From the IMG/VR virus record IMGVR_UViG_3300037840_000188, positions 62,001-126,000 of that record: a DNA stretch of 64,000 bases. One strand, given 5' to 3'. Positions 39 through 62,521 of the stretch are shown here, in pieces; positions within the stretch are counted from its first letter, which is position 1; each line of letters begins with the position of its first letter. Source of the DNA: a virus. The notes under the pieces were generated by a model that was not told where the DNA came from, did not search any database, and saw nothing but the letters and a program-made list of their open reading frames with translations. The position numbers and the translations under genes were made by a program.

Positions 39-109
39 TGGCGGAGTCGGAGTGATTCGAACACTCAATTGCTTTCGCAATCACGCCTTAGCGGGGCGCT
101 GCAATACCG
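39..109 (-). tRNA. tRNA-Ser(GCT), 3' part only
   Basis: Read on the minus strand this segment folds as the 3' two thirds of a class II tRNA: anticodon stem GCGCC/GGCGT around loop CCGCTAA (anticodon GCT), a long variable arm GATTGC-GAAA-GCAATT, T arm GAGTG/CACTC with TTCGAAT loop, acceptor 3' strand CGACTCC, discriminator G and an encoded CCA. The D arm is only partly present and the 5' acceptor strand (expected GGAGTCG) is missing; at about position 109 the sequence turns into transposase coding sequence. It cannot make a functional tRNA. It is either a tRNA cut by recombination or an att-like remnant. Confidence 0.8.
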
Positions 110-762
110 TTCTGGGGGTTACTCAGAAGACGGCGTGGTTTATGTTGAGTCGGATTCGCCTCGCAATGCAGGACGATCTCACGGGAGGAAACCTTGGCGG
201 CGAAGTCGAAGTGGACGAAACCTACATCGGCGGCAAGGCGCGCAACATGCATGCATCGGCCCGTCTTCGTCGGCACATCGGGACGGGCGGTGAAGGCAAG
301 ACGGTAGTTCTCGGGATTTTGGAACGCGCGAGCGGGAAGAAACCGAAGCGCATCCGCGCTACCGTCATTTCGGATCGCAAGAAAGCGACGATTCAGCCTG
401 AGGTGGCCGGACAAGTCGAGCGCGGCTCGAAAGTCTATACTGACGACTTCGCACATACGTGGAGAATGGAAGATCGCTTTGAGCATGAGATGGTCAACCA
501 TCTCGACAAGTACGTCTCTGGCAACTGCCATACAAATTCGCTTGAGAATTTTTGGTCCTTGCTCAAGCGGTCCGTTGGCGGAACTTACATCAGCGTGGAA
601 CCGTTCCACCTGTTTCGTTACGTCGATGAACAGGCGTTCCGGTTTAACAACCGGCTCATGGACGACGCTACGCGCTTCGTGATTGGCATGACTCAGATCG
701 TCGGACGCCGCTTGACGTATGCTCAGTTGACTGGGAAAGCAGAGGTTGTTCAACATGGCTGA
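109..762 (+). pseudogene. IS1595-family transposase, N-terminally truncated
   Basis: Cut-and-paste DDE-type transposase of the ISXO2/IS1595 group. Recognisable homology to the intact copy at 29951-30934 begins at VLGVTQKTAWFML and continues to the end: VEVDETYIGGKARNMH (first catalytic Asp), VYTDDF (second Asp) and HTNSLENFW (third motif). About 105 N-terminal residues, including the CxxC zinc ribbon and most of the helix-turn-helix, are missing, so the protein is inactive. An open frame extends upstream to position 13, but those codons read through the antisense of the tRNA fragment and are not family sequence. Confidence 0.85.
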
Positions 763-15354: not shown

Positions 15355-17340
15355 TCAACCCGATGTTGCTATTGTGGGTCCATTTGCATTCTGCTTGAGA
15401 CTTGGTGGGGCTTGGTCTGTCTGCTTCCGACCCGCCGAGTTCGCGATTAAGCCTATCCCGAGTTGCTGCTGAAGTGCCAGCCGACCAATTTCATCAGCAG
15501 GGATTTTTAATCCAGGAGGAGAAAAATTATCTCTTCCCGCAGCTTCCATGAGAGAAAAAACGGATAAATATCCCATTTTAGCCAACATAAAGTCCTGAAG
15601 GAGCTCCTGCTGCCCGGCAGAATTAAGCAACGAAGATGGCGCGAATTTAAATGCAAACGACGCAAGCATTGCCTTCGCTCTTTCATACAGCGGTCGCGGT
15701 CCATCAGACATAAAAGCATCCAGCGTCGAGCCCACGTCACCAGGCTCCCCATCCGGCACATCATCTGGAATGAAGTTTCCAGCAGAGAAATCATAATCCT
15801 CTGCTGTTACTGCGTCTGGACCAAACTTCATTAACCGCTTGGAAAGTGTATCGAATTCAGCAATACAATATAAAAATTGTTCGCTAAATTCCTTCATAAA
15901 CCCTTCCAGAATCCTTGATCTTAAACGGATTCCAGGCGTTTGAAACTTGGCGATGGTATCGAGTGTATCGTCGGATGGTATCTGATTTAACGACGCCATT
16001 CCCTGAATATTCGCCGTCCCTGCCGCCTCCCGCATCCATTCTTCGAGCTTCTCGATATGCGTCCAGATTGACTGCGGAAGAGTAGGCGGATTAACGATCT
16101 GAATTCCCTTCCCAGAAGCCGGATTAGATCTCACTTTATATCCGGCGACCGCCGAATTAAACTTAGTAAACTCGCTGCGGGAAACATTGCGATCCGCAAT
16201 AGCACCAGGCTGCGCAATTTGAGCGGCATTATTATCCACCACTCGACACAGACCGTTCAGCGACTCATTAAGCGGAAGAAGGTCCCAGAGCGGGGCCTTC
16301 CCCAAGAACGACATCGGCCACGGATTCAACGTGAGCTTGATGAGGGGATATTGACCATGCCAGTACGGCGACGTATCGTCATAAAGCATGACGCCGTTTG
16401 ACCATACAATCATCCGCTTAAACGGGTAGAGCGGCATCCCGGGCTTGACCTTGTATGACCATTGATTCTGCCCGACTAGTTCGCCTTTTTCGTTTTTCTC
16501 CCAACCCCCCATGTAGACATCGTGTTTATATGGATTAGTGCGCGGGTCGTCCAGATAGAGGGTACGCAGAAAGCACGTGGGAGTCTTTGGAATTGGGGCG
16601 TCTGCATGCTTCCGGTCTGGAGATAACGGCCCAGTAACCGAACTCTTGCCGGTAACTGCCCCCACTGCGTGAAGAAACCACCCGAAGATAGATTGCCCGC
16701 CAACGTTAGGGGCTACGTCTTTTCCGTACTCTGATTTAATCCATGCTGGAGTTTTTGCCTGATTGAGGATGACGCCCTCAGCATCCTGAAGGGTGTGATA
16801 CGAGATGGGTCCGATTGGAATTACGTTTCGTGGATCGACGGCATCCACCATCATGTCATTCAGGCGGCGGGAGTAATACAAGTGGGCATAGCCCGTACCG
16901 CAACACGTGTAGTATCGAATTACATCACTGATCCGCAGGTCGATGCAGCGCTGCGTATACCAAGCCGAAGCTTCTTTATTGGATATTCTAGCCTGATTTT
17001 CGTACTTGGGATTATTCGTGGAGTAGTTCCAAAACACCCGTGCGTCGGTCAGCATCGCCGTGATATCTTCAGCGGTAATTGCCACCTTGTTGACCCGAGT
17101 GTTACTCAGGGGGCGCGGCGTCGGAGCATAACTGGCATTCGATGAGGTCTTTTCGTAAGCGAAAATCGCCCCGATGGTCTTGTCGATCTTGTCGTACCCA
17201 ACCTGCGCCTCAATAAACTCCTGCCCCTGTTTAAGGCGAGCCTCGCACCAGCTGATGATCGCGTAATCCCGCGTCCCCGGCTTAGCAGGATCGGGCTCAG
17301 GCAGAGGCGGCAAATCAAAGTCAGGCATTGCCTCTATCAT
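15355..17340 (-). CDS. portal protein
   Basis: 661 residues, full length for a podovirus/P22-like portal, the dodecameric ring through which DNA enters the head. Long helical protein with a typical portal centre (WPMSFLGKAPLWDLLPLNES, NGLCRVVDNNAAQIAQPG) and later AAGTANIQGMAS and an acidic loop before a helical crown. Encoded on the minus strand upstream of the capsid cluster. No internal stop, in contrast to terminase and capsid. Confidence 0.85.
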   Translation of the reverse strand: MIEAMPDFDLPPLPEPDPAKPGTRDYAIISWCEARLKQGQEFIEAQVGYDKIDKTIGAIFAYEKTSSNASYAPTPRPLSNTRVNKVAITAEDITAMLTDARVFWNYSTNNPKYENQARISNKEASAWYTQRCIDLRISDVIRYYTCCGTGYAHLYYSRRLNDMMVDAVDPRNVIPIGPISYHTLQDAEGVILNQAKTPAWIKSEYGKDVAPNVGGQSIFGWFLHAVGAVTGKSSVTGPLSPDRKHADAPIPKTPTCFLRTLYLDDPRTNPYKHDVYMGGWEKNEKGELVGQNQWSYKVKPGMPLYPFKRMIVWSNGVMLYDDTSPYWHGQYPLIKLTLNPWPMSFLGKAPLWDLLPLNESLNGLCRVVDNNAAQIAQPGAIADRNVSRSEFTKFNSAVAGYKVRSNPASGKGIQIVNPPTLPQSIWTHIEKLEEWMREAAGTANIQGMASLNQIPSDDTLDTIAKFQTPGIRLRSRILEGFMKEFSEQFLYCIAEFDTLSKRLMKFGPDAVTAEDYDFSAGNFIPDDVPDGEPGDVGSTLDAFMSDGPRPLYERAKAMLASFAFKFAPSSLLNSAGQQELLQDFMLAKMGYLSVFSLMEAAGRDNFSPPGLKIPADEIGRLALQQQLGIGLIANSAGRKQTDQAPPSLKQNANGPTIATSG

Positions 17341-19153: not shown

Positions 19154-19498
19154 CTACCGCCCGGTTTTCGCCGGTGTGAGGCCGAGCTTGTTCTGGAGAG
19201 CCGCCATCTTCTTGACAGCTTCAGTCTTGCGCTCGCTCGTGGTCTTGTAACCCTCAAGCTCTGCTTCGATACGCTTCAGCTCTGCCATATCGGCAGCGCG
19301 AGTGCGACGGTCGATCTCATCACGCAGAACGGTGGTCGACTTCTCCAACCATTCCGGCGCGGAGATCTGAAGGTGGCCGTACTCATTCTCCAGATTGCGC
19401 GCGTAGGCCGATAGCGTCACCGCTTCGTCCATATCAAGAACGCGATCCAGATTCAGATTCTTCAATGCCTGTAACATTGCTTTAATCCTTTCTACCAC
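19154..19498 (-). CDS. coiled-coil protein
   Basis: 114 residues, almost entirely helical with heptad patterns in the second half (AELKRIEAELEGYKTTSERK). Stop abuts the next start. Downstream of the rsr-HNH pair and probably co-transcribed with it. Function unknown. Confidence 0.65.
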   Translation of the reverse strand: MVERIKAMLQALKNLNLDRVLDMDEAVTLSAYARNLENEYGHLQISAPEWLEKSTTVLRDEIDRRTRAADMAELKRIEAELEGYKTTSERKTEAVKKMAALQNKLGLTPAKTGR

Positions 19499-19503
19499 GA
19501 AGC

Positions 19504-20097
19504 TCAGCGCGAGCGCGGCTTGGCAGTTATTTTTCGCAAATCATTCAAGCGCTCGACGAGCGCCTCGTTAGCCAGGTAAGTCTTGTAATTTATCTCATCC
19601 GGCTGATTTAGATAATGCATATCCGAGGAAACACGACCATATTCGGATGAGGCTATCCACGCCGAATATTCCATGCTCCCCCGAAGCTTATTACAGCGAC
19701 GGCAGGCGCTAACTAGATTGTCCTCAGCCGTCGCCCCACCATCCTCCCAGAGAATTACGTGATCCACCGTTAATGGCTTTTCTTGACCACAGTACCTACA
19801 CCGAAAGTGATCTCTCCGAAAGACATTCCAGCTGACGAACTGATCTATCTGCCGCTGGCTCTTTCGAAGAATCGCCTTTCCCGGCCCTCGCACATCGAGC
19901 ACGTCGGACTGATTCAGGAAGCGCTCCCACTGAGCGGTGTCCATCACGAGCAGTTCGTGCTCGCCCGCGAGGTCTTCGTCTGGTAACGGGACGAGATACA
20001 CTTTCCCGTTACCAGTCCAGATCGCACCGCCGAGTTGAATCGTGTGGCCGACTTCGAGGATGTCGAGGTCGGCTAACGTCACCTGAGTGGCGGTCAT
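19504..20097 (-). CDS. HNH endonuclease coupled to rsr
   Basis: 197 residues. An N-terminal beta-rich domain (about 1-90) precedes a classical HNH nuclease: RCRYCG, LTVDHVI, GG, NLVSACRRCNKLRG. The start overlaps the rsr stop by 4 bp (ATGA), so translation is coupled to Ro60. Unlike the homing endonucleases elsewhere it reads with its neighbours, which suggests a functional partnership with the Ro60-Y RNA system rather than simple parasitism; this is inference. Confidence 0.8.
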   Translation of the reverse strand: MTATQVTLADLDILEVGHTIQLGGAIWTGNGKVYLVPLPDEDLAGEHELLVMDTAQWERFLNQSDVLDVRGPGKAILRKSQRQIDQFVSWNVFRRDHFRCRYCGQEKPLTVDHVILWEDGGATAEDNLVSACRRCNKLRGSMEYSAWIASSEYGRVSSDMHYLNQPDEINYKTYLANEALVERLNDLRKITAKPRSR

Positions 20098-21614
20098 GCC
20101 GCCACCAACTCACGAACGCCGAGCACCTGATCGAGGGTCAACAGAGGGCACGACATGATCTTTTCAACGACACCAAACCGAGAGGCGTTCATCGACTGTA
20201 CGAGGTTTGGCAGCGCATAGTAGTCGGTCCCATTCGTCAGATCATATTCCGTGAACTGCAACCCAGCCGCTGCCATTGCGGCTCCAAACAGACGCGGACT
20301 TCCATTGCCCATCGCGTACCGAGCATCAACAAATGTCCGGTACAGGTAAACCGGAACCTGCTTGTCCGTCTGGCGCTTGAAATGTTGATACGCCGTCGCG
20401 AACATCGGGTGACTGTTCTCGCCTCCATCGCCCACGATTGCGATCCCATCGATATTAAGCTTCTTGTCGAGCGCCCAAGCGAGGCCAACGCCATACGAAG
20501 TACCACCGCTGGCGAAGATGAACTTCGTCTGCCCTTTGATCTCGTCAAGCGTCTTGCCGGTTACCTCGATAGGAGTCACGTCCGTATTGCAGAAAACAAG
20601 CCATACGCGGCCCGTCACAAACTTCGCAATAGCAGCACCGATGTGCGCTCCGAGTTCAATAGCCTGCTCCTGCGACTGGCTGCGATCCACGATCACAAGC
20701 CAATCACCCTCAATCCCCCGCCCCGCATCCTTCTGAGCCTGAATCTGACGCTCCTGGAGTTCGCGAAGCATGGTCTTCAATCCCTTGTCCTCGACTTCAT
20801 CAGCCGCGACCGAGGTCTTGAGCGTTGCCTTATTGCTCTTCGTCGCCTTCGCAACTTTCTTTCGGAAGGTGTCCTTCAGCGCGGCATCTCGCGAGAGACC
20901 CTTCTTTTCGAGGCTCTTTGCCCGCGTCACGACCTCGGTATCGCTCATTTGGTCCATACCGGCCTGAACGACCTCTGAGGCCTGCTGCGTGGCCTTTGCG
21001 CCAGTCATGGCACCACTGACCACCAGTGGAGACAAATGCCACTTCTGGATCGTTGCAGCAACCTGTGCCGGGGTCATCTTCGAGAGATTCTTGATGTCGG
21101 CGAAGATCGTACCCTGCGCCGGATTGCCGTTGAACAGCACATCCGCAGCGAAAGCTGGAATCTTCGCATGAGTCAGCGCGTACAGCGACTTCAAACTGCG
21201 CCGGTGGCGAGCCGCGAGGCGGTTCCATTTGCCCGGCTCGGCAGCCTTGGCGTCGAGATAAGAATGGATCATCCGTTTGATCGCCGTATCGCGACGGCGG
21301 GCCAAATTAAGTGTGGCCGAGAAGCGGAGCGCGCGAAGAATTTCGCGCGGCGACTGCATCGCCAGATGCGCCAGCGAGTTCTCGACAAGCTCATCGGGAA
21401 ACTCACGCGTGGCCAGCGTGATCACTGGGAGAGCGATCTTTGTATCCTTTATTTGCCCGTTCGTGAAGTCAAAAGCGATTAAATGGGCGAGAAATTCCGG
21501 GTCCTGACGGCAGGCTGCGCCGATCACGTTCTGATAGGCGGCGAGGTCTCCGTGAAGGGAAAGATTTAACTTCCCTACGATTTCGTTGCGCGTGATTCCG
21601 AGTTCTTGTGACAT
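20094..21614 (-). CDS. rsr: Ro60/TROVE domain RNA-binding protein
   Basis: 506 residues, normal for bacterial Ro60. The N-terminal 300 residues form the HEAT-repeat-like TROVE ring that binds misfolded RNA ends in its cavity and Y RNA on its outside. The C-terminal domain is von Willebrand A with a MIDAS: VDRSQSQ (DxSxS), GGTSYG and GDGGEN. Known Ro60 relatives act in RNA quality control and stress recovery, in some bacteria together with polynucleotide phosphorylase through Y RNA. Three Y RNAs lie directly upstream on the same strand, the last ending 9 nt before the ATG. A phage-borne copy could remodel host RNA decay. Confidence 0.92.
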   Translation of the reverse strand: MSQELGITRNEIVGKLNLSLHGDLAAYQNVIGAACRQDPEFLAHLIAFDFTNGQIKDTKIALPVITLATREFPDELVENSLAHLAMQSPREILRALRFSATLNLARRRDTAIKRMIHSYLDAKAAEPGKWNRLAARHRRSLKSLYALTHAKIPAFAADVLFNGNPAQGTIFADIKNLSKMTPAQVAATIQKWHLSPLVVSGAMTGAKATQQASEVVQAGMDQMSDTEVVTRAKSLEKKGLSRDAALKDTFRKKVAKATKSNKATLKTSVAADEVEDKGLKTMLRELQERQIQAQKDAGRGIEGDWLVIVDRSQSQEQAIELGAHIGAAIAKFVTGRVWLVFCNTDVTPIEVTGKTLDEIKGQTKFIFASGGTSYGVGLAWALDKKLNIDGIAIVGDGGENSHPMFATAYQHFKRQTDKQVPVYLYRTFVDARYAMGNGSPRLFGAAMAAAGLQFTEYDLTNGTDYYALPNLVQSMNASRFGVVEKIMSCPLLTLDQVLGVRELVAA

Positions 21615-21622
21615 AAAAATAA

Positions 21623-21793
21623 AGGGCGGCGTGTCGATGGACTGTTGCTTTTAGGCAATCACCAAATGATTGTGCCCCGCCGTGGAGCCTCTCCCCCGTA
21701 AGCGCTTTTCAGCAGTTTTATGGGTGGGGGAGGTCGGAATCGAACCGACTGTCTTCTTGCGAAGATGCGTGTAAGTCCGTCAGTTTCCGCCCT
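21623..21793 (-). ncRNA. yrlA: Y RNA 3 (YrlA-type), class II tRNA-like module
   Basis: Ends pair as AGGGCGG/CCGCCCT. The conserved internal loop strands are ACTGAC and ATCGACACG, with an inner helix GGAC/GTCC that covaries with GCGC/GCGC in the other two copies. The inserted module carries a T arm (GTCGG, TTCGATT, CCGAC), acceptor strands CTCCCCC and GGGGGAG in permuted order, and an anticodon-like hairpin CAATC/GATTG, plus a TCTTC-GCAA-GAAGA arm. It overlaps the 5' leader of rsr. Confidence 0.8.
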
Positions 21794-21828
21794 AACTTAG
21801 TGCCTCAATAAAACGGAGGCGAAATCAA

Positions 21829-21995
21829 AGGAAGCCATGTCGATGCGCTTTGCTGTTATTGGCAAGTCATGCGCTCTACCGCTGAGCTAATCGCTCACTG
21901 GTGAAATCGTTTCCGACTAGTCGACCAGTGAACGATTCTGGATTTGAACCAGAGACCTCATGAATTAAACGTGTATGCGCGTCAGTTTGCTTCCT
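21829..21995 (-). ncRNA. yrlA: Y RNA 2 (YrlA-type), module opened at the anticodon loop
   Basis: Ends pair as AGGAAGC/GCTTCCT around the same internal loop (ACTGAC; ATCGACATG). The 3' tRNA half (TCATG, T arm TCTGG/CCAGA, ATCGTTCA) comes before the 5' half (GAGCGAT, D arm TAGCTCAGCGGTAGAGC, CATGA). Acceptor strands extend into a 13-bp helix, so the acceptor ends are bridged by a loop and no CCA is exposed. This circular permutation is what tRNA-mimicking Y RNAs do and argues against a translating tRNA. Confidence 0.82.
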
Positions 21996-22033
21996 GTCTC
22001 GATGAAAGCCGCGTCGTCAGACTCTCGAACTTA

Positions 22034-22157
22034 TTCCCGGCATGTCGATGCGCGTTGATCCCTTACGGGAACGGTTGGAGTTGAACCAACTACCTAAAGC
22101 GTTGAAGGCTTTTGCTCTACCAAATGAGCTACGTGTAAGCGCGTCAGTGTCCGGGAA
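22034..22157 (-). ncRNA. yrlA: Y RNA 1 (YrlA-type), module opened in the acceptor stem
   Basis: Ends pair as TTCCCGG/CCGGGAA with the conserved internal loop (ACTGAC; ATCGACATG) and inner helix GCGC/GCGC. The module contains a D arm (TAGCTCATTTGGTAGAGC), an anticodon-like hairpin AAAGC-CTTCAAC-GCTTT, T arm GTTGG/CCAAC, and an acceptor-like CGTTCCC capped by GTAA and GGGA. The apparent anticodon TCA should not be read as a suppressor tRNA, because the acceptor end is closed. Confidence 0.8.
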
Positions 22158-22187
22158 AACCTTTCGAACTTGCGTCCGAAACATCAG

Positions 22188-22216
22188 ACTACCACATTAC
22201 CCATGTTACCTGTCAA
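22188..22216 (-). promoter_or_regulatory. possible promoter of the Y RNA-rsr transcript
   Basis: A perfect TTGACA on the minus strand (22211-22216) stands about 30 nt upstream of Y RNA 1. With 17-bp spacing the -10 would be GGTAGT, a weak match. It is the only good -35 in this gap and is placed correctly to drive the three Y RNAs and rsr. Confidence 0.35.
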
Positions 22217-51609: not shown

Positions 51610-52744
51610 TCAACGACTATCGACCGAAAGTCGATAGCTTGTCCCGCCCGCTGAAAGCGGGCTGAAGACGTTCGGCGCGTTGACGTTGCGCCCTGCGGCG
51701 GTGATTTGCCGCAGCGTTGGTATCTGCATGGGCCTCGTGATGGCACGAGACGCAGCGGAACTTAGACTGGCTGGAGCGGTTGGATTTTGAGATATGACTG
51801 CAACGATTACATTCGCGGGACGAGTTTCGGGGATCGGTCACCTCGACCGGCACGCCCCCAATTCCAGCTTTGTAAGCCACGAACGATCTCAATTGCCTGA
51901 ACGCCCAACTTCGCAGAACTACCCGTTGCGACTTCCTAACCTTTACCCGGTCGAGAATACCGCCAAGTTCTTCGATGGCGATACCCCGACCAGTGCCTTT
52001 GGCTGTCGCAACGATCTGTTTGGATATGCAATGGTTAATGTCACGAGCAAAACGCGATTCTTTGCCCGCCAATTTACGAAGACGACGGCGTGCCGACTTC
52101 GTTTGAAGCTTCTGGAGTTTGGTTCTCAGTCGGCGCTGCCGATGCCGCACGGCTTTGACCGGCTTACCGCTGTAGTGCTTTCCGTCCGAGTCGCTGGCGA
52201 TATTAGTAATCCCGAAGTCGACGCCAAGGAAATCATCGGCGTCTCTCGGTTCGGGCTCCTCAACGTTACACGTGGCTGTCAGAAACCAGTTGCCGCGATG
52301 GAAGAGAAGATCAGATTCGCCCTGGCGGGATGCGAGCAGCGCCAGCTGCCTCTCTCCTGCGACAAAGTTGCATTTTATGCGCCCGTCGAGAGTGCTTATG
52401 GAAACTGTCTTCTTATCGACATGCCACGTCAGATTTCGGTCGTCGAATGCGAGGCTACCGAGCGGCTTAAATCGCCGCTTTGTTTTCTTGTCGAGCTTAT
52501 ATGCGTCCGCGACCTTCGCTGTGCATCGGACGGCCACTTGGGCTGGAATTCCGAAGGTCTCTCGCAGTTCTCGGTACGAGAGTTTCTGGAGCGCGTATTG
52601 GGCAAACGTCTTCTGTTTCCACGCTTGATCGCTCAGCCAATTGCAGGCTTTATTTGCCGTGCGCAGTAACTTATCGAGAGCCATCCGTTGCGCGGCGTCG
52701 GGGAGCAATTTAACTTTTGCGGAAAGCTTCAATGATCCAGTATA
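51610..52744 (-). mobile_element. IS200/IS605-group TnpB element 1
   Basis: About 1,135 bp with a single tnpB gene and no TnpA, so non-autonomous. On the minus strand the left flank ends TTGAT, the known target/TAM type of ISDra2-like elements, and the right end contains hairpins CAGCCCGC...GCGGGC and CTATCGAC-TTT-GGTCGATAG followed by TTGAC. The right end is expected to form the omega RNA whose guide would be copied from the flank at about 51590-51609. Confidence 0.75.
51617..52732 (-). CDS. tnpB: TnpB RNA-guided nuclease 1
   Basis: About 371 residues from TTG 52732. RuvC-like motifs: FLGVDFGITNIASD (Asp), GIAIEELGGIL (Glu) and HADTNAAANHR (Asp); zinc finger CNRCSHISKSNRSSQSKFRC with CVSC. 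N-terminal part typical (KLLPDAAQRMALDKLLRTAN). TnpB cleaves DNA using an RNA from the element's right end and helps element retention. Upstream open frame is outside the element. Confidence 0.9.
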   Translation of the reverse strand: MKLSAKVKLLPDAAQRMALDKLLRTANKACNWLSDQAWKQKTFAQYALQKLSYRELRETFGIPAQVAVRCTAKVADAYKLDKKTKRRFKPLGSLAFDDRNLTWHVDKKTVSISTLDGRIKCNFVAGERQLALLASRQGESDLLFHRGNWFLTATCNVEEPEPRDADDFLGVDFGITNIASDSDGKHYSGKPVKAVRHRQRRLRTKLQKLQTKSARRRLRKLAGKESRFARDINHCISKQIVATAKGTGRGIAIEELGGILDRVKVRKSQRVVLRSWAFRQLRSFVAYKAGIGGVPVEVTDPRNSSRECNRCSHISKSNRSSQSKFRCVSCHHEAHADTNAAANHRRRAQRQRAERLQPAFSGRDKLSTFGR

Positions 52745-52754
52745 ATCAAGTATT

Positions 52755-52874
52755 GATGAAAAAAGCAAATCTCGACGGAAACTGGCAGTCGATGGGCGAC
52801 GAGAAGTTGGATGCCGTAGCCGCTGCCTTGGGCTGGGAAGATCCCGCTGGCTGCACGTCTGAGGCGAAGCAATG
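52755..52874 (+). CDS. 39-aa peptide
   Basis: ATG 52755: MKKANLDGNWQSMGDEKLDA and 19 more. Overlaps the restored preceding gene (TGATG) and the next gene (ATGA). CsbD-like or stress peptide resemblance is weak. Confidence 0.6.
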
Positions 52875-52990
52875 AGCGACCGCCTGAAAGGCTGCATTGT
52901 CAGTTTCGACCACGATATCCGCGAAGACGACGCCGAGTTTTACCTAAACGCCATCCGTGCAATAAAAGGGAATTATATACATAATTTCCC

Positions 52991-56805: not shown

Positions 56806-57549
56806 ATGGATTTCAAGCCAATACGTTTTATCGCCACTGTATGGAATCACTGGGAGGCGCGCTTTGGCACGACGTTCGCCGTGCTTCTAGCGGTTATGCA
56901 GGCAGTAATAGTCGCAGTGGCAGATCCGGTGAAAGTTCCTGAATGGATCAAAACATTTCCACCTCTGCTATGGCTATCCATAGGAGCGGTGCTTTTATTT
57001 TGGTCATGCTATGCAGCATGGAGGGACGTTGATACTAAACTTGCAGTACTCAAAGCGACTAACTCGAAGCCTAGCTTTTCGGGAAAGATAAAACTACTCT
57101 CGTTTGCTTCTGGTGGACCGAATAACGAGTCGTCAATTGTAACGGCTGTACTATCTCTGAATAATCCAACTGGTCCACCGAGTATCACTGAGGACTGGAA
57201 AATATCAGTCATTATTGGAGGTGAGGAGATAGTGAGCAAGGCGATTCTTTCTCCAAAGGGCGATATTCGATTGGGGTTCGCGTCGGACCCGCAAAAGAAC
57301 ATTATTTTGGGTAATGACAACTGGCTACCACGAGCCGGGAAGATAACTCCGATACCTTCTGGCGGCGGAATAGACGGATGGCTGATGGGTCTAGTGCCAT
57401 GCCGCAGGGAGATTCTACAGAGGGCAGGTAATATGGTCCGGATTAGATTTAACGACGTTACCGGATATGAACACACAATTGATGAACCAATAACCGGTAT
57501 AACCAGTGACCCCCTAGGGATGGATGGGTTACAAAATAAAACCTCCTAG
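56806..57549 (+). CDS. T4 membrane passenger protein
   Basis: 247 residues. Two transmembrane helices (FAVLLAVMQAVIVAVAD; PLLWLSIGAVLLFWSCYAAW) and a C-terminal beta-rich soluble domain. Resembles the T1 passenger in plan. Converges with the transposase (4-bp overlap of ends). Function unknown; passenger genes of such transposons often affect host fitness or defence, which is speculation here. Confidence 0.7.
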   Translation: MDFKPIRFIATVWNHWEARFGTTFAVLLAVMQAVIVAVADPVKVPEWIKTFPPLLWLSIGAVLLFWSCYAAWRDVDTKLAVLKATNSKPSFSGKIKLLSFASGGPNNESSIVTAVLSLNNPTGPPSITEDWKISVIIGGEEIVSKAILSPKGDIRLGFASDPQKNIILGNDNWLPRAGKITPIPSGGGIDGWLMGLVPCRREILQRAGNMVRIRFNDVTGYEHTIDEPITGITSDPLGMDGLQNKTS

Positions 57550-58454
57550 GCGATGAGTTCCCTATACTCCATCTTCTCGGTCTGTACCAACCGCGTGAGC
57601 GTGTCACGGAACAGGAACGGATTCTCCCGGTTGTTGAAACGAAACTCAAACTCTTCAAGGTAACGATCCAAATGCTTCGCGCTCACCTGATGATAGGAAC
57701 CGACGATAGACCGTTTGAACAGCGACCATGCGCCCTCGATGCCGTTCGTGTGAACGTCTCCCCTGACCCATTCTTCCGCGCTGTGGTTCACGCTGTGGTG
57801 CTCGGTGTCTGCGTCCGCGATCCCCGAGTATCCGGGGTTGTCATCAGTGACAATGCGCGATGTATCCGGCTTCGTGGTTTCCGCTACGAAGGCGTGCAGG
57901 GCTTTCTTGTTGCCCCGCTTCTTTTGCTTCTCGACGCGCAGCCGAATCTGTCCGCCGCGTTCGAGCGCCCCGAGGACCATTGTTTTGTTGTCGAGGTTCC
58001 CGCTGCCTACGTGCCGCTTGTGTCCGCCTACATAGGTTTCGTCCATCTCAACCGTTTTACCGATCCCGCCGATCTTGGTAGGACTCACTTCGGTCATAGC
58101 CTTGCGGATGCGATGACAGAGGTACCAAGCGGTCTTATAGGCCACTTTGATCGACCGGCCCAACTGATTAGCAGAGATGCCTTTCTTTCCCTCGCACATC
58201 AGATACACAGCAAGAAACCACTTCCAGAGCGGAAGGTGAGTGTCATTGAAGATCGTACCGGCGGTTACGGAGAACTGGTAGCGGCATGAGTCACAGTCAT
58301 ACACTCCGCGTTCTGCGATGCGGGAGACCGTCGTCTTGCCCGGGCAACGCGGGCAACGCGCGCCAGTGGGCCAGCGCAGCAACTCCAGGTATTCACGGCA
58401 GGCATCATCATTACCGCCAAACTGTTCAACTAGAGCGACAAGGTTAGTTTCCAT
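57546..58454 (-). CDS. IS1595-family transposase (T4)
   Basis: 302 residues, intact. Zinc ribbon CPRCPGKT...YDCDSCRYQF, HTH part SANQLGRSIKVAYKTAWYLC, catalytic motifs VEMDETYVGGHKR, IVTDDNPGYS, HTNGIEGAW. Its start codon overlaps the start of the divergent small gene (58452-58455). Confidence 0.93.
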   Translation of the reverse strand: METNLVALVEQFGGNDDACREYLELLRWPTGARCPRCPGKTTVSRIAERGVYDCDSCRYQFSVTAGTIFNDTHLPLWKWFLAVYLMCEGKKGISANQLGRSIKVAYKTAWYLCHRIRKAMTEVSPTKIGGIGKTVEMDETYVGGHKRHVGSGNLDNKTMVLGALERGGQIRLRVEKQKKRGNKKALHAFVAETTKPDTSRIVTDDNPGYSGIADADTEHHSVNHSAEEWVRGDVHTNGIEGAWSLFKRSIVGSYHQVSAKHLDRYLEEFEFRFNNRENPFLFRDTLTRLVQTEKMEYRELIA

Positions 58455-59646: not shown

Positions 59647-60087
59647 CTGATCTCTCAGCAGCTCTGGAGCGGTGCTGTAAAGCGGCGGGGTGGACCTACA
59701 TCGAATACAACGGCTACCAGCACGTACTGGAGAAGCCAACAGGCACGACCACTAAAGCAACGTGGCACTTCGATGACTCGTCTCACGACGACGCCATAGC
59801 CCTTCAGTCCGCTCTGGTGAAGCGGTATCCACAGATGTGGCCTTCGTTCGTTTCCCAAGTAAGGGCACAAGCTCTGAGTGTTGTTGGGTGGGAACTGTTG
59901 GCGGTTCATCTGTTGACCCTTGCCCCCTCCGCCCGTATTCTGGCGCTTGAAGCTGCGTTGCCGAGATGTGGGGAGTGCGGGGGCAGCGGTGAAAAACCGA
60001 CGGAGCGCAGCATCAGGCTATGCCTTGAAACCGGCTCGCCGATGGAAACTGGTATGTGCCCCGCCTGCGACGGTGTGGGGATAGAGA

Positions 60088-61213
60088 CGTGCTGAGAACG
60101 TATCAATTCAGGCTGCTTCCGAACGCCACCCAAACAGCGATACTTGAGCGCGTTCTTGCGGATAACTGTGAAACCTACAATGCTGCCCTTCAGGAGCGCA
60201 GGGATGCATGGCGACTATGCCGCGAGGGTATAACCTACCAGGATCAACAAAGGGAATTGACCGAGTTACGGAAAGACCCAAGTTTCAGTTGGATAGCCTG
60301 CAAAATTCAACGAGATGCCCTGCATCGAGTAGATCGTGCATTCAAGGCATTCTTCCGTCGATGCAAGGATGGGGAGAAGCCCGGATTTCCGAGATTTCGA
60401 TCCATCTACAGGTACAGGTCGTTCACAATTGAAAGCAAACCAAGCATCAAGCATCGGTCGATTCTTATCCCCAAGATAGGGTACATCCGGATGCGAGGAG
60501 GAAGGCCGGTAGCGGGGATCGTAAAAACAGCGACGATCAAAAAAGACGGAAGCATCTGGAATGCGAATATCGTGTGTGATATCGGGGCATCGCCGACCCG
60601 ACAACCGGTGTCACATCCGGTCGGAATTGACGTAGGCCTGACAAATCTCGCCGTTCTTAGCGATGGGACAAAAATCGACAACCCGCGCTGGACCAGGAAG
60701 CACGAAGCGAGGATCGCCGCCGCAAGCCGACGATTGGCCGTTAAACAGAAGCGATCAAAAAATCGTATCCGCGCACGAGAAGTTTTGCGTCGTGCCCACC
60801 AGCGAGCAGCAGATGCGCGTAAGAATTACCTGCATCATGTCTCTAAGTGGCTCATATTAAATTACGATCTGATCGCCCACGAAGACCTGAAGATCCGAAA
60901 CATGGTAAAGTCCCCGCGACTTGCCAAATCAATCATGGACGCCGCCTGGGGTATTCTCATCTGGCAACTGACGTACAAAGCTGAAAAGGCTGGGCGTTGG
61001 ATTGTTCCGGTGAATCCGCGCGGGACATCGATCCGTTGCTCTGGCTGTGGCGAGGCGGTCCCGAAGACACTGGCAGACCGTCAGCATACTTGCGTCTGTG
61101 GTGTGAGCCTCGGACGCGATCACAACGCAGCAATTAACATTCAAAGGCTCGGGATGAGCCTTGCGGGCTTTGGGCCTTCAGAACGTGAGGTCAACTCATG
61201 AGTTCCATAGAGA
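60088..61213 (+). mobile_element. TnpB element 2
   Basis: About 1,126 bp with only tnpB. Flanked by the 7-bp direct repeat ATAGAGA (60081-60087, 61207-61213). The right end after the gene contains GAACGTGAGGTCAACTCATG, the kind of sequence from which an omega RNA guide end is made. No transposase, so it must be mobilised in trans or be immobile. Confidence 0.75.
60089..61201 (+). CDS. tnpB: TnpB RNA-guided nuclease 2
   Basis: 370 residues from GTG 60089. Motifs: LLPNATQTAILERVLADNCE, VGIDVGLTNLAVLSDG (Asp), LIAHEDLKIRNM (Glu), zinc finger CSGCGEAVPKTLADRQHTC plus CVCG, and GRDHNAAINIQRLG (Asp). Differs clearly from TnpB 1 in sequence and zinc spacing. Intact catalytic set. Confidence 0.92.
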   Translation: MLRTYQFRLLPNATQTAILERVLADNCETYNAALQERRDAWRLCREGITYQDQQRELTELRKDPSFSWIACKIQRDALHRVDRAFKAFFRRCKDGEKPGFPRFRSIYRYRSFTIESKPSIKHRSILIPKIGYIRMRGGRPVAGIVKTATIKKDGSIWNANIVCDIGASPTRQPVSHPVGIDVGLTNLAVLSDGTKIDNPRWTRKHEARIAAASRRLAVKQKRSKNRIRAREVLRRAHQRAADARKNYLHHVSKWLILNYDLIAHEDLKIRNMVKSPRLAKSIMDAAWGILIWQLTYKAEKAGRWIVPVNPRGTSIRCSGCGEAVPKTLADRQHTCVCGVSLGRDHNAAINIQRLGMSLAGFGPSEREVNS

Positions 61214-61493: not shown

Positions 61494-62521
61494 ACGTTGA
61501 GTTACTCCAGATCGACGGCAAGATTCCGAACATTGCGCTGATGCGCCTTGCGGCTCACCACAAGCAACTCGGTGATGACGTGGTGTATCACCGCGCAGAT
61601 TCGCTCGCGTCGGTCCATCCATTTCGTTTCCGGCCCGATGCGAAGGTTTACGCCAGTACGATATTTTCGCGGTCCGCGCCGGTCGTGAAGGAATTACTGA
61701 AGGGCAGGCCGGATGCCATTGTCGGCGGAACCGGCAGTGACGTTCCTCCATTGCAGATATCCCAACTCGAAAAACACGGCGTCACTAGTCTTGATCAGGA
61801 CTATTCGATCTACCCAAACTTCCGGCAGTCCATTGGATTCACGCAGCGCGGTTGCCGGTTGAAGTGCTCGTTTTGCGTCGTTCCTCAGAAGGAGGGACGC
61901 ATCCGCGAAGAGAAGACTATCGCGGAAATCTGGCGCGGCGATCCGTGGCCACGTGAAATCATTCTGTTGGATAACGACTTCTTCGGACAGCCAAACTGGA
62001 GAGGACGGATCGCAGAGATTCGTGACGGCGGATTCAAGGTCAGTTTCAATCAAGGCATCAACGCACGCTGCATCACAGACGAAGCGGCGGAAGCGATTGC
62101 CTCGGTTAAGTATCGGGATGACAACTTCAAGACGAAGACTATCTATACGGCATGGGATAGCCGGGAAGACGAGGAACGCCTTTTTACCGGCCTGGGCCGA
62201 CTGGTCAAGTACGGCGTGAAGCCCGACAACATCACCGTTTACATGCTGATCGGGTACTGGCCAGGTGAAACAGCCGAGGACCGCGAATATCGAAGGGCGA
62301 AGCTGAGAGCGTTTGGCGCTCGTCCGTTTCCAATGGCATACATTACAAACGACACGCCACCCGAGAAGGCCCTCGAACTCAGGGGTTTTCAGCGGTGGGT
62401 TATTCGCCGCGCAGATGTGGGGAAGAATCGGTGCTCGTGGGCTGAGTTTACGGCAGCGCGCTACCGGCCCGAGAAAATCGGCATGAGGGTTGGCGGGCGT
62501 GGGGATGAGGGAGGAAAATGA
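61490..62521 (+). CDS. radical SAM protein
   Basis: 343 residues. N-terminal cobalamin-binding-like region (IDGKIPNIALMRLAAHHKQL), then the [4Fe-4S] motif FTQRGCRLKCSFCVVPQKEG (CxxxCxxC), followed by a TIM-barrel-like segment (REIILLDNDFFGQPNW, FNQGINARCITDEAA, YMLIGYWPGETAED). Generates a 5'-deoxyadenosyl radical; substrate unknown. Phages use such enzymes in nucleotide or DNA base modification, so modification of phage DNA or tRNA is a reasonable but unproven role. Confidence 0.88.
   Translation: MNVELLQIDGKIPNIALMRLAAHHKQLGDDVVYHRADSLASVHPFRFRPDAKVYASTIFSRSAPVVKELLKGRPDAIVGGTGSDVPPLQISQLEKHGVTSLDQDYSIYPNFRQSIGFTQRGCRLKCSFCVVPQKEGRIREEKTIAEIWRGDPWPREIILLDNDFFGQPNWRGRIAEIRDGGFKVSFNQGINARCITDEAAEAIASVKYRDDNFKTKTIYTAWDSREDEERLFTGLGRLVKYGVKPDNITVYMLIGYWPGETAEDREYRRAKLRAFGARPFPMAYITNDTPPEKALELRGFQRWVIRRADVGKNRCSWAEFTAARYRPEKIGMRVGGRGDEGGK

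Follow-up and report, generated by a model that had tools for sequence, protein, structure and literature searches.

Why do bacterial and phage Y RNAs copy transfer RNA (tRNA)? The question is still debated, and the Ro locus analyzed here bears on it. The locus lies in a 64,000-nucleotide (nt) stretch of viral DNA (the window; positions 62,001 to 126,000 of the 140,995-base IMG/VR virus record IMGVR_UViG_3300037840_000188). We observed three Y-like RNAs on the strand of a divergent Ro-like gene and directly upstream of it. Each carries a near-complete tRNA, circularly permuted, and the three are three different circular permutations. The initial annotation had placed three RNAs here, directly upstream on the same strand and with correct lengths (Table 1). 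It had also called the context phage-like, in agreement with a portal gene (15355-17340), a DNA polymerase/primase and the virus record itself. It had mentioned neither the permutations nor a conserved small open reading frame (ORF) after the Ro gene.

The product of the Ro-like gene, 506 amino acids (aa) long, had been described as a full TROVE plus von Willebrand A (vWA) protein. We found no TROVE match in the Pfam, PHROGs or NCBIfam models; the cut-off of PF05731 was not reached, and none of 7 relatives tested matched it either. Sequence profiles against the PDB reached TROVE chains only at E 0.17-0.5 and were not used as proof. As a statement about structure, the description held. An AlphaFold2 model from 8 sequences had a mean predicted local distance difference test score (pLDDT) of 79 and a predicted template modeling score (pTM) of 0.58, and it replaced an earlier model from 4 close sequences (pLDDT 59). 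The top 12 Foldseek matches of this model in the PDB were all Ro60, Rsr or TROVE structures, including 9kop (E = 1.3e-8), Deinococcus radiodurans Rsr (2nvo, 6.5e-8), Ro60 of Thermus phage phiLo (9l5y) and Ro (1yvp). Template modeling (TM) scores were ~0.5, with high root-mean-square deviation and 10-15% identity, so the domain orientation is unsettled. Full-length matches in a viral structure library included annotated Ro-like phage proteins. A vWA motif of the metal ion-dependent adhesion site (MIDAS) type, DxSxS (D310-S312-S314), was invariant in the 8 sequences. On this modeled fold, the ORF is predicted to encode a divergent Ro60/Rsr-type TROVE plus vWA protein.

Protein scans yielded three related loci (L001, L002 and L005), and a broader alignment extended the set to 49 IMG/VR contigs and two contigs from metagenome-assembled genomes (MAGs). 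Most relatives carry 2-6 copies of the Y stem. A Y-stem scanner gave 174 matches in 123 kb upstream of the homologous genes versus 68 in the other 747 kb of these loci, a distribution that argues against chance. DNA patterns made from the RNAs alone recovered four contigs (L129, L131, L133 and L023) in which the next gene is a Ro homologue (36-40% identical); RNA and protein thus travel together.

The stem consists of a variable 7-bp base, a 3-bp covarying element (UGA/UCG, UGG/CCG or UAG/CUG) with conserved internal-loop bases, a 4-bp upper stem and UACAYG. The loop motifs named in the initial annotation, ACTGAC and ATCGACATG/ATCGACACG, are present in the window RNAs. For a pairing test, stems were selected by three features alone: the TACAYG motif, the GAYW motif and the lower stem. 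The upper-stem pairs, which lie outside this selection, were paired in 72% of cases versus 46% when partners were dealt anew (standard deviation 1.7, maximum 51%) and 33-41% when partners were slid. GC, CG, AU, UA and GU pairs were all seen. UACAUG follows the upper stem at the same place in Acidobacteriota YrlA beside TROVE genes, and the scanner built on the phage RNAs also finds YrlA beside bacterial TROVE genes. This common element links the phage RNAs with Y RNAs despite sub-threshold Rfam scores. Like YrlA, the window RNAs lie beside a Ro gene and have a long terminal stem and the UACAYG element.

The tRNA mimicry that the initial annotation had ascribed to bacterial Y RNAs is seen in the window RNAs. 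To each insert we fitted a complete cloverleaf whose single break point was left free. RNA 1 has the order D-anticodon-T, with the Y stem in the 5′ acceptor strand, between nt 4 and 5. Its acceptor is rebuilt from GGGA plus ACG against CGTTCCC (seven pairs) under a GTAA tetraloop cap, and its anticodon loop is CTTCAAC. RNA 1 scored 54 in the fit, 51.8 bits against Rfam tRNA and 121 bits against our model R1, of which it is itself part. RNA 2 (fit score 52) has the YrlA-like order T-acceptor-D; the Y stem sits in the anticodon loop, and the 7-bp acceptor is extended into a long closed hairpin. RNA 3 shares this order, continued by an intact anticodon arm (CAATC ATTTGGT GATTG), with the Y stem in the variable loop and a long variable-arm hairpin. 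Its automatic fit was 37, reflecting an unusual D arm, and its break point was assigned from the minimum free energy (MFE) fold instead. RNA 3 also gave a sub-threshold match to Rfam tmRNA_permuted. The MFE folds of the window RNAs had z = −2.6, −3.4 and −2.5.

Over the whole set, 72 fits scored at least 30 (the weaker ones being less certain) and 63 at least 45, compared with 0/645 shuffled inserts fitted as a cloverleaf. The Y stem broke the tRNA at the acceptor end in 9 RNAs, in the 5′ acceptor strand after nt 1-5 in 26, in the anticodon stem (26-30) in 25, in or just after the anticodon loop (38-39) in 4, and in the 3′ anticodon strand or variable loop (41-44) in 8. Acceptor-side and other grafts were mixed in 17 of the 21 loci with at least two fitted RNAs; L001 and L002 each combine an acceptor, an anticodon-loop and a variable-loop type, some assigned by eye. 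Acceptor-strand mimics gain their missing acceptor half beyond a small cap, frequently GNRA or UUCG. Anticodon-stem mimics reassemble the arm from two pieces that lie apart, with 5/5 pairs in most. A first class of "split anticodon loop" RNAs numbered 12 versus a mean of 9.8 in a leader-shuffled control, which was no better; the break-point fit recast most of these as anticodon-stem breaks with the loop rebuilt. U33 was kept in 53/60 scored mimic loops and a purine at position 37 (R37) in 59/60, counts slightly biased by a small bonus in the fit for both, and many different anticodons were present.

Covariance in added homologues, the lack of which the initial annotation had named as a refutation, supported the structures both in the stem pairs described above and in the acceptor type. 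An alignment of 24 acceptor-type RNAs, part of whose Y stem had been used for selection, showed changes on both sides in 29/35 pairs and 89.0% paired cells. Its covariation was 0.618 versus 0.180 when shuffled (0/500) and 0.09-0.15 when slid.

Table 1. Features of the Ro locus in the window
Feature	Position	Strand	Length	Evidence
Y-like RNA 1	22034..22157	-	124 nt	cloverleaf fit, covariation, model R1, MFE fold
Y-like RNA 2	21829..21995	-	167 nt	cloverleaf fit, MFE fold, sub-threshold Rfam YrlA
Y-like RNA 3	21623..21793	-	171 nt	MFE fold; automatic fit weak
Predicted Ro60/Rsr-like TROVE + vWA protein	20094..21614	-	506 aa	AlphaFold2 model and Foldseek, MIDAS motif
HNH endonuclease ORF	19504..20097	-		PF01844, 9.6e-13; overlaps Ro stop
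Conserved small ORF	19154..19498	-	114 aa	conservation downstream of Ro in relatives
Promoter-like TTGACA...TAGTCT, spacer 19, upstream of RNA 1	22186..22216	-		read from sequence; weak

The conserved small ORF (~100 aa across the family) is next after Ro or one gene further in 42/52 loci. It matched no known family and nothing in annotated phages; the 114-aa protein is a candidate third component of the Ro/Y-RNA system. HNH homologues occur in 23 loci, the window included, upstream or downstream of Ro with no fixed position. A consensus promoter scan found none, including the promoter-like sequence in Table 1. TTGAC lies at most 90 nt from the first Y RNA in 18/42 loci versus 5/42 control stretches, a weak signal. 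The 3′ end of RNA 3 is 8 nt before the Ro start codon (21614-21623), where no Shine-Dalgarno sequence is visible; the spacing in L001 and L002 is similarly short.

Several side observations concern tRNA genes around these arrays. Outside the window, ~10 tRNA-like matches lie ~24 kb from the array (record G000:C1:52686-60429, minus strand), and many relative loci (L153, L155, L160, L166 and L181) also sit among dense tRNA gene clusters. L181 carries a phage-borne permuted tmRNA (57-346, plus strand; RF04321, 101 bits) ~2 kb upstream of its Y-RNA array. In L001 (3602-3784) and L144 (3654-3810 and 3185-3294), Rfam tRNA matches span two neighboring structures: each covers the D/anticodon half of a permuted Y RNA and continues into the T arm of its neighbor. 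This pattern hints at an origin of the permuted units from tandem tRNA genes. The window also holds three transposase genes alongside the portal and polymerase genes (51617-52897, minus; 57546-58454, minus; 60056-61201, plus), two of the phrog_506 type and one of the ISXO2/IS1595 type.

We compared the locus with known Ro systems. Neither phage Ro genes nor phage rsr loci with several Y RNAs are new: a classical Ro-like protein is present in 377 annotated phages. The initial annotation had considered three Y RNAs per rsr unusual in a phage, which does not agree with the copy numbers of the relatives or with HyRo, a cultured mycobacteriophage with an annotated Ro gene and three upstream Y-like stems. 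Chen et al. (2014; RNA 20:1715) are said to have described probable Y RNAs close to Ro60 genes of bacteria and phages, one or more per species being tRNA-like.

In bacterial Rsr/YrlA systems (Deinococcus RYPER, Salmonella rsr-yrlBA; RF02553), a Ro ring protein is likewise encoded beside Y RNAs that have a terminal stem and a tRNA-like domain with a closed acceptor, grafted on the anticodon side as in RNA 2. All five bacterial YrlAs scored were anticodon-side (28-38), and none had an acceptor-side or variable-loop graft. Unlike these systems, the window protein is below Pfam detection, the window RNAs are below the Rfam threshold, and the phage record has no RtcB. When model R1 was run over 297 Acidobacteriota genomes (11 candidates scored per genome), ordinary tRNAs swamped the scan at ~60-72 bits, and only the MAG holding a phage-type locus stood out (117 bits); this is neither proof nor exclusion of bacterial acceptor-type Y RNAs.

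Actinobacteriophages (Mycobacterium HyRo and Sparky, Gordonia Neville) likewise carry Ro with 2-4 Y-like RNAs upstream (two stems in Sparky, several in Neville), and several of these loci are near tRNA genes. Their Ro proteins were not alignable to the window protein by tblastn, and their Y-like RNAs have GGUUAYC where the window type has UACAYG. The tRNA-like RNAs scored were all anticodon-stem grafts at 27-28. Ro60 of phiLo, a solved structure, has the fold of the window protein at ~15% identity. Another relative is the 595-kb uncultured, unannotated phage LR756511, whose homologue is 28.6% identical over 95% of the protein and follows an acceptor-side, canonical-order tRNA inside a Y-like stem. 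Its stem sequence is more divergent, and the window-type scanner did not score it. At L003 2590-3270 this phage has a stem row (CCGTCCCCGACA...TTACAAAC...ACTTGGACGG), some stems without a tRNA and one with a canonical-order tRNA.

Listeria phage CKA15 encodes an Rsr-like protein (CKA15_055), likewise with abundant small RNAs upstream (PMC12282133). Transcription of the regions before this gene is high, and virions contain its product (PMC12282133). By position, gp165 of the related phage P100 is likely the counterpart of the CKA15 gene. Considered as an expressed relative, gp165 was rejected, with no profile similarity to the window protein family. Three small RNAs, each a stem with ACAGCAAWTACTA, lie directly before gp165, at most 700 nt upstream of 28091 on the minus strand of L192. 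Tethering of a tRNA mimic at several different corners, as in the ~40 related phages here, seems to be undescribed so far; in these small samples, acceptor-side and variable-loop grafts are peculiar to this clade.

The protein fold, the RNA structures, their covariation and the gene neighborhood are the results on which we base a function. The locus probably encodes a phage Ro ribonucleoprotein whose Y RNAs would most likely act as adaptors or baits. The three RNAs and the Ro protein would come from one strand, probably as one transcription unit. The 7-bp variable lower stem and the short covarying stem with UACAYG would form the Ro-binding-type stem and dock on the Ro ring. This stem leaves the permuted tRNA body, whose aminoacyl end is closed, through the acceptor arm (RNA 1), the anticodon loop (RNA 2) or the variable loop (RNA 3), and each graft would keep different tRNA faces free. 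The tRNA-shaped module could then catch host enzymes that recognize tRNA: PNPase (compare Deinococcus RYPER), tRNA-modifying enzymes or tRNA-cutting nucleases. We infer the docking, and the offer of a tRNA shape to a tRNA-binding partner, from the Deinococcus and Salmonella systems, where YrlA mimics tRNA and tethers Rsr to PNPase (PMC8394870, PMC7790460). Several tethering points would be useful if the RNAs have to present different faces or address more than one partner. Transcription, Ro binding, a recruited partner and a benefit to the phage would all be parts of this proposal, and the locus may have a role in RNA decay.

Some results weigh against this reading. The window protein does not reach Pfam TROVE. 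The Rfam Y RNA-like search proposed in the initial annotation (RF02553, gathering threshold 69) gave at best 27.2 bits, for RNA 2, and the threshold was not reached in 12 relative loci. In about 48 of the 129 RNAs we detected no tRNA domain, so mimicking tRNA is not the sole role. No RtcB or RNA ligase was found in the 141-kb record, which leaves a link to RNA repair unsupported.

The complete cloverleaves raise the alternative that these are permuted tRNA genes, their products matured into working tRNAs by cutting and rejoining or by trimming. NCCA at 73-76 occurs in 7/9 acceptor-end grafts and in 6/30 permuted ones. However, small caps close most acceptor-strand mimics, of which 1/24 has NCCA; the ligases such rejoining calls for are those missing from the record, a covarying Y stem would serve nothing, and UACAYG is common to YrlA. 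We regard this explanation as very improbable. The position of the last Y RNA, which ends a few nt before the ATG with no clear Shine-Dalgarno sequence in the window, L001 and L002, would suit a cis-acting leader through which Ro, by binding that RNA, regulates its own translation. In many loci, however, other sequence separates the array from the gene (with a terminator-like hairpin in L005 and L133), and autoregulation needs no set of several different RNAs; such a leader is unlikely.

The anticodon loops bear on a further explanation, in which the RNAs imitate tRNAs and, held on the Ro ring, absorb or sense the anticodon nucleases of the host and other defences that cleave tRNA, real anticodon loops being the key. 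The loops are rebuilt even where the Y stem splits the arm, U33 and R37 are kept (with the slight bias given above), the anticodons are many, and these phages carry many tRNA genes. Hughes et al. suggest competitive inhibition of an anticodon nuclease by YrlA as a possibility, but also state that this nuclease does not accept the tRNA-like domain of YrlA as a substrate (PMC7790460). The anticodon loop of RNA 2 is split, and many array members have no tRNA. We consider a decoy function possible, at a tentative level; at the level of sequence, adaptor and decoy versions are inseparable. Equally speculative is a widespread phage Ro ring that might display whole-tRNA mimics with several anticodons, tethered at the acceptor arm, anticodon arm or variable loop, as baits for host enzymes that target tRNA, together with the small partner protein.

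For the Ro family, these data mean that Pfam and Rfam models overlook an entire clade of phage Ro ribonucleoproteins. Its arrays offer a ready panel of natural circular permutants, with a small conserved candidate partner gene, for finding the partner. Because the tether moves between corners and the arrays still retain a tRNA shape with a plausible anticodon loop, our data suggest that some partner is shown the entire tRNA body and not a single arm.
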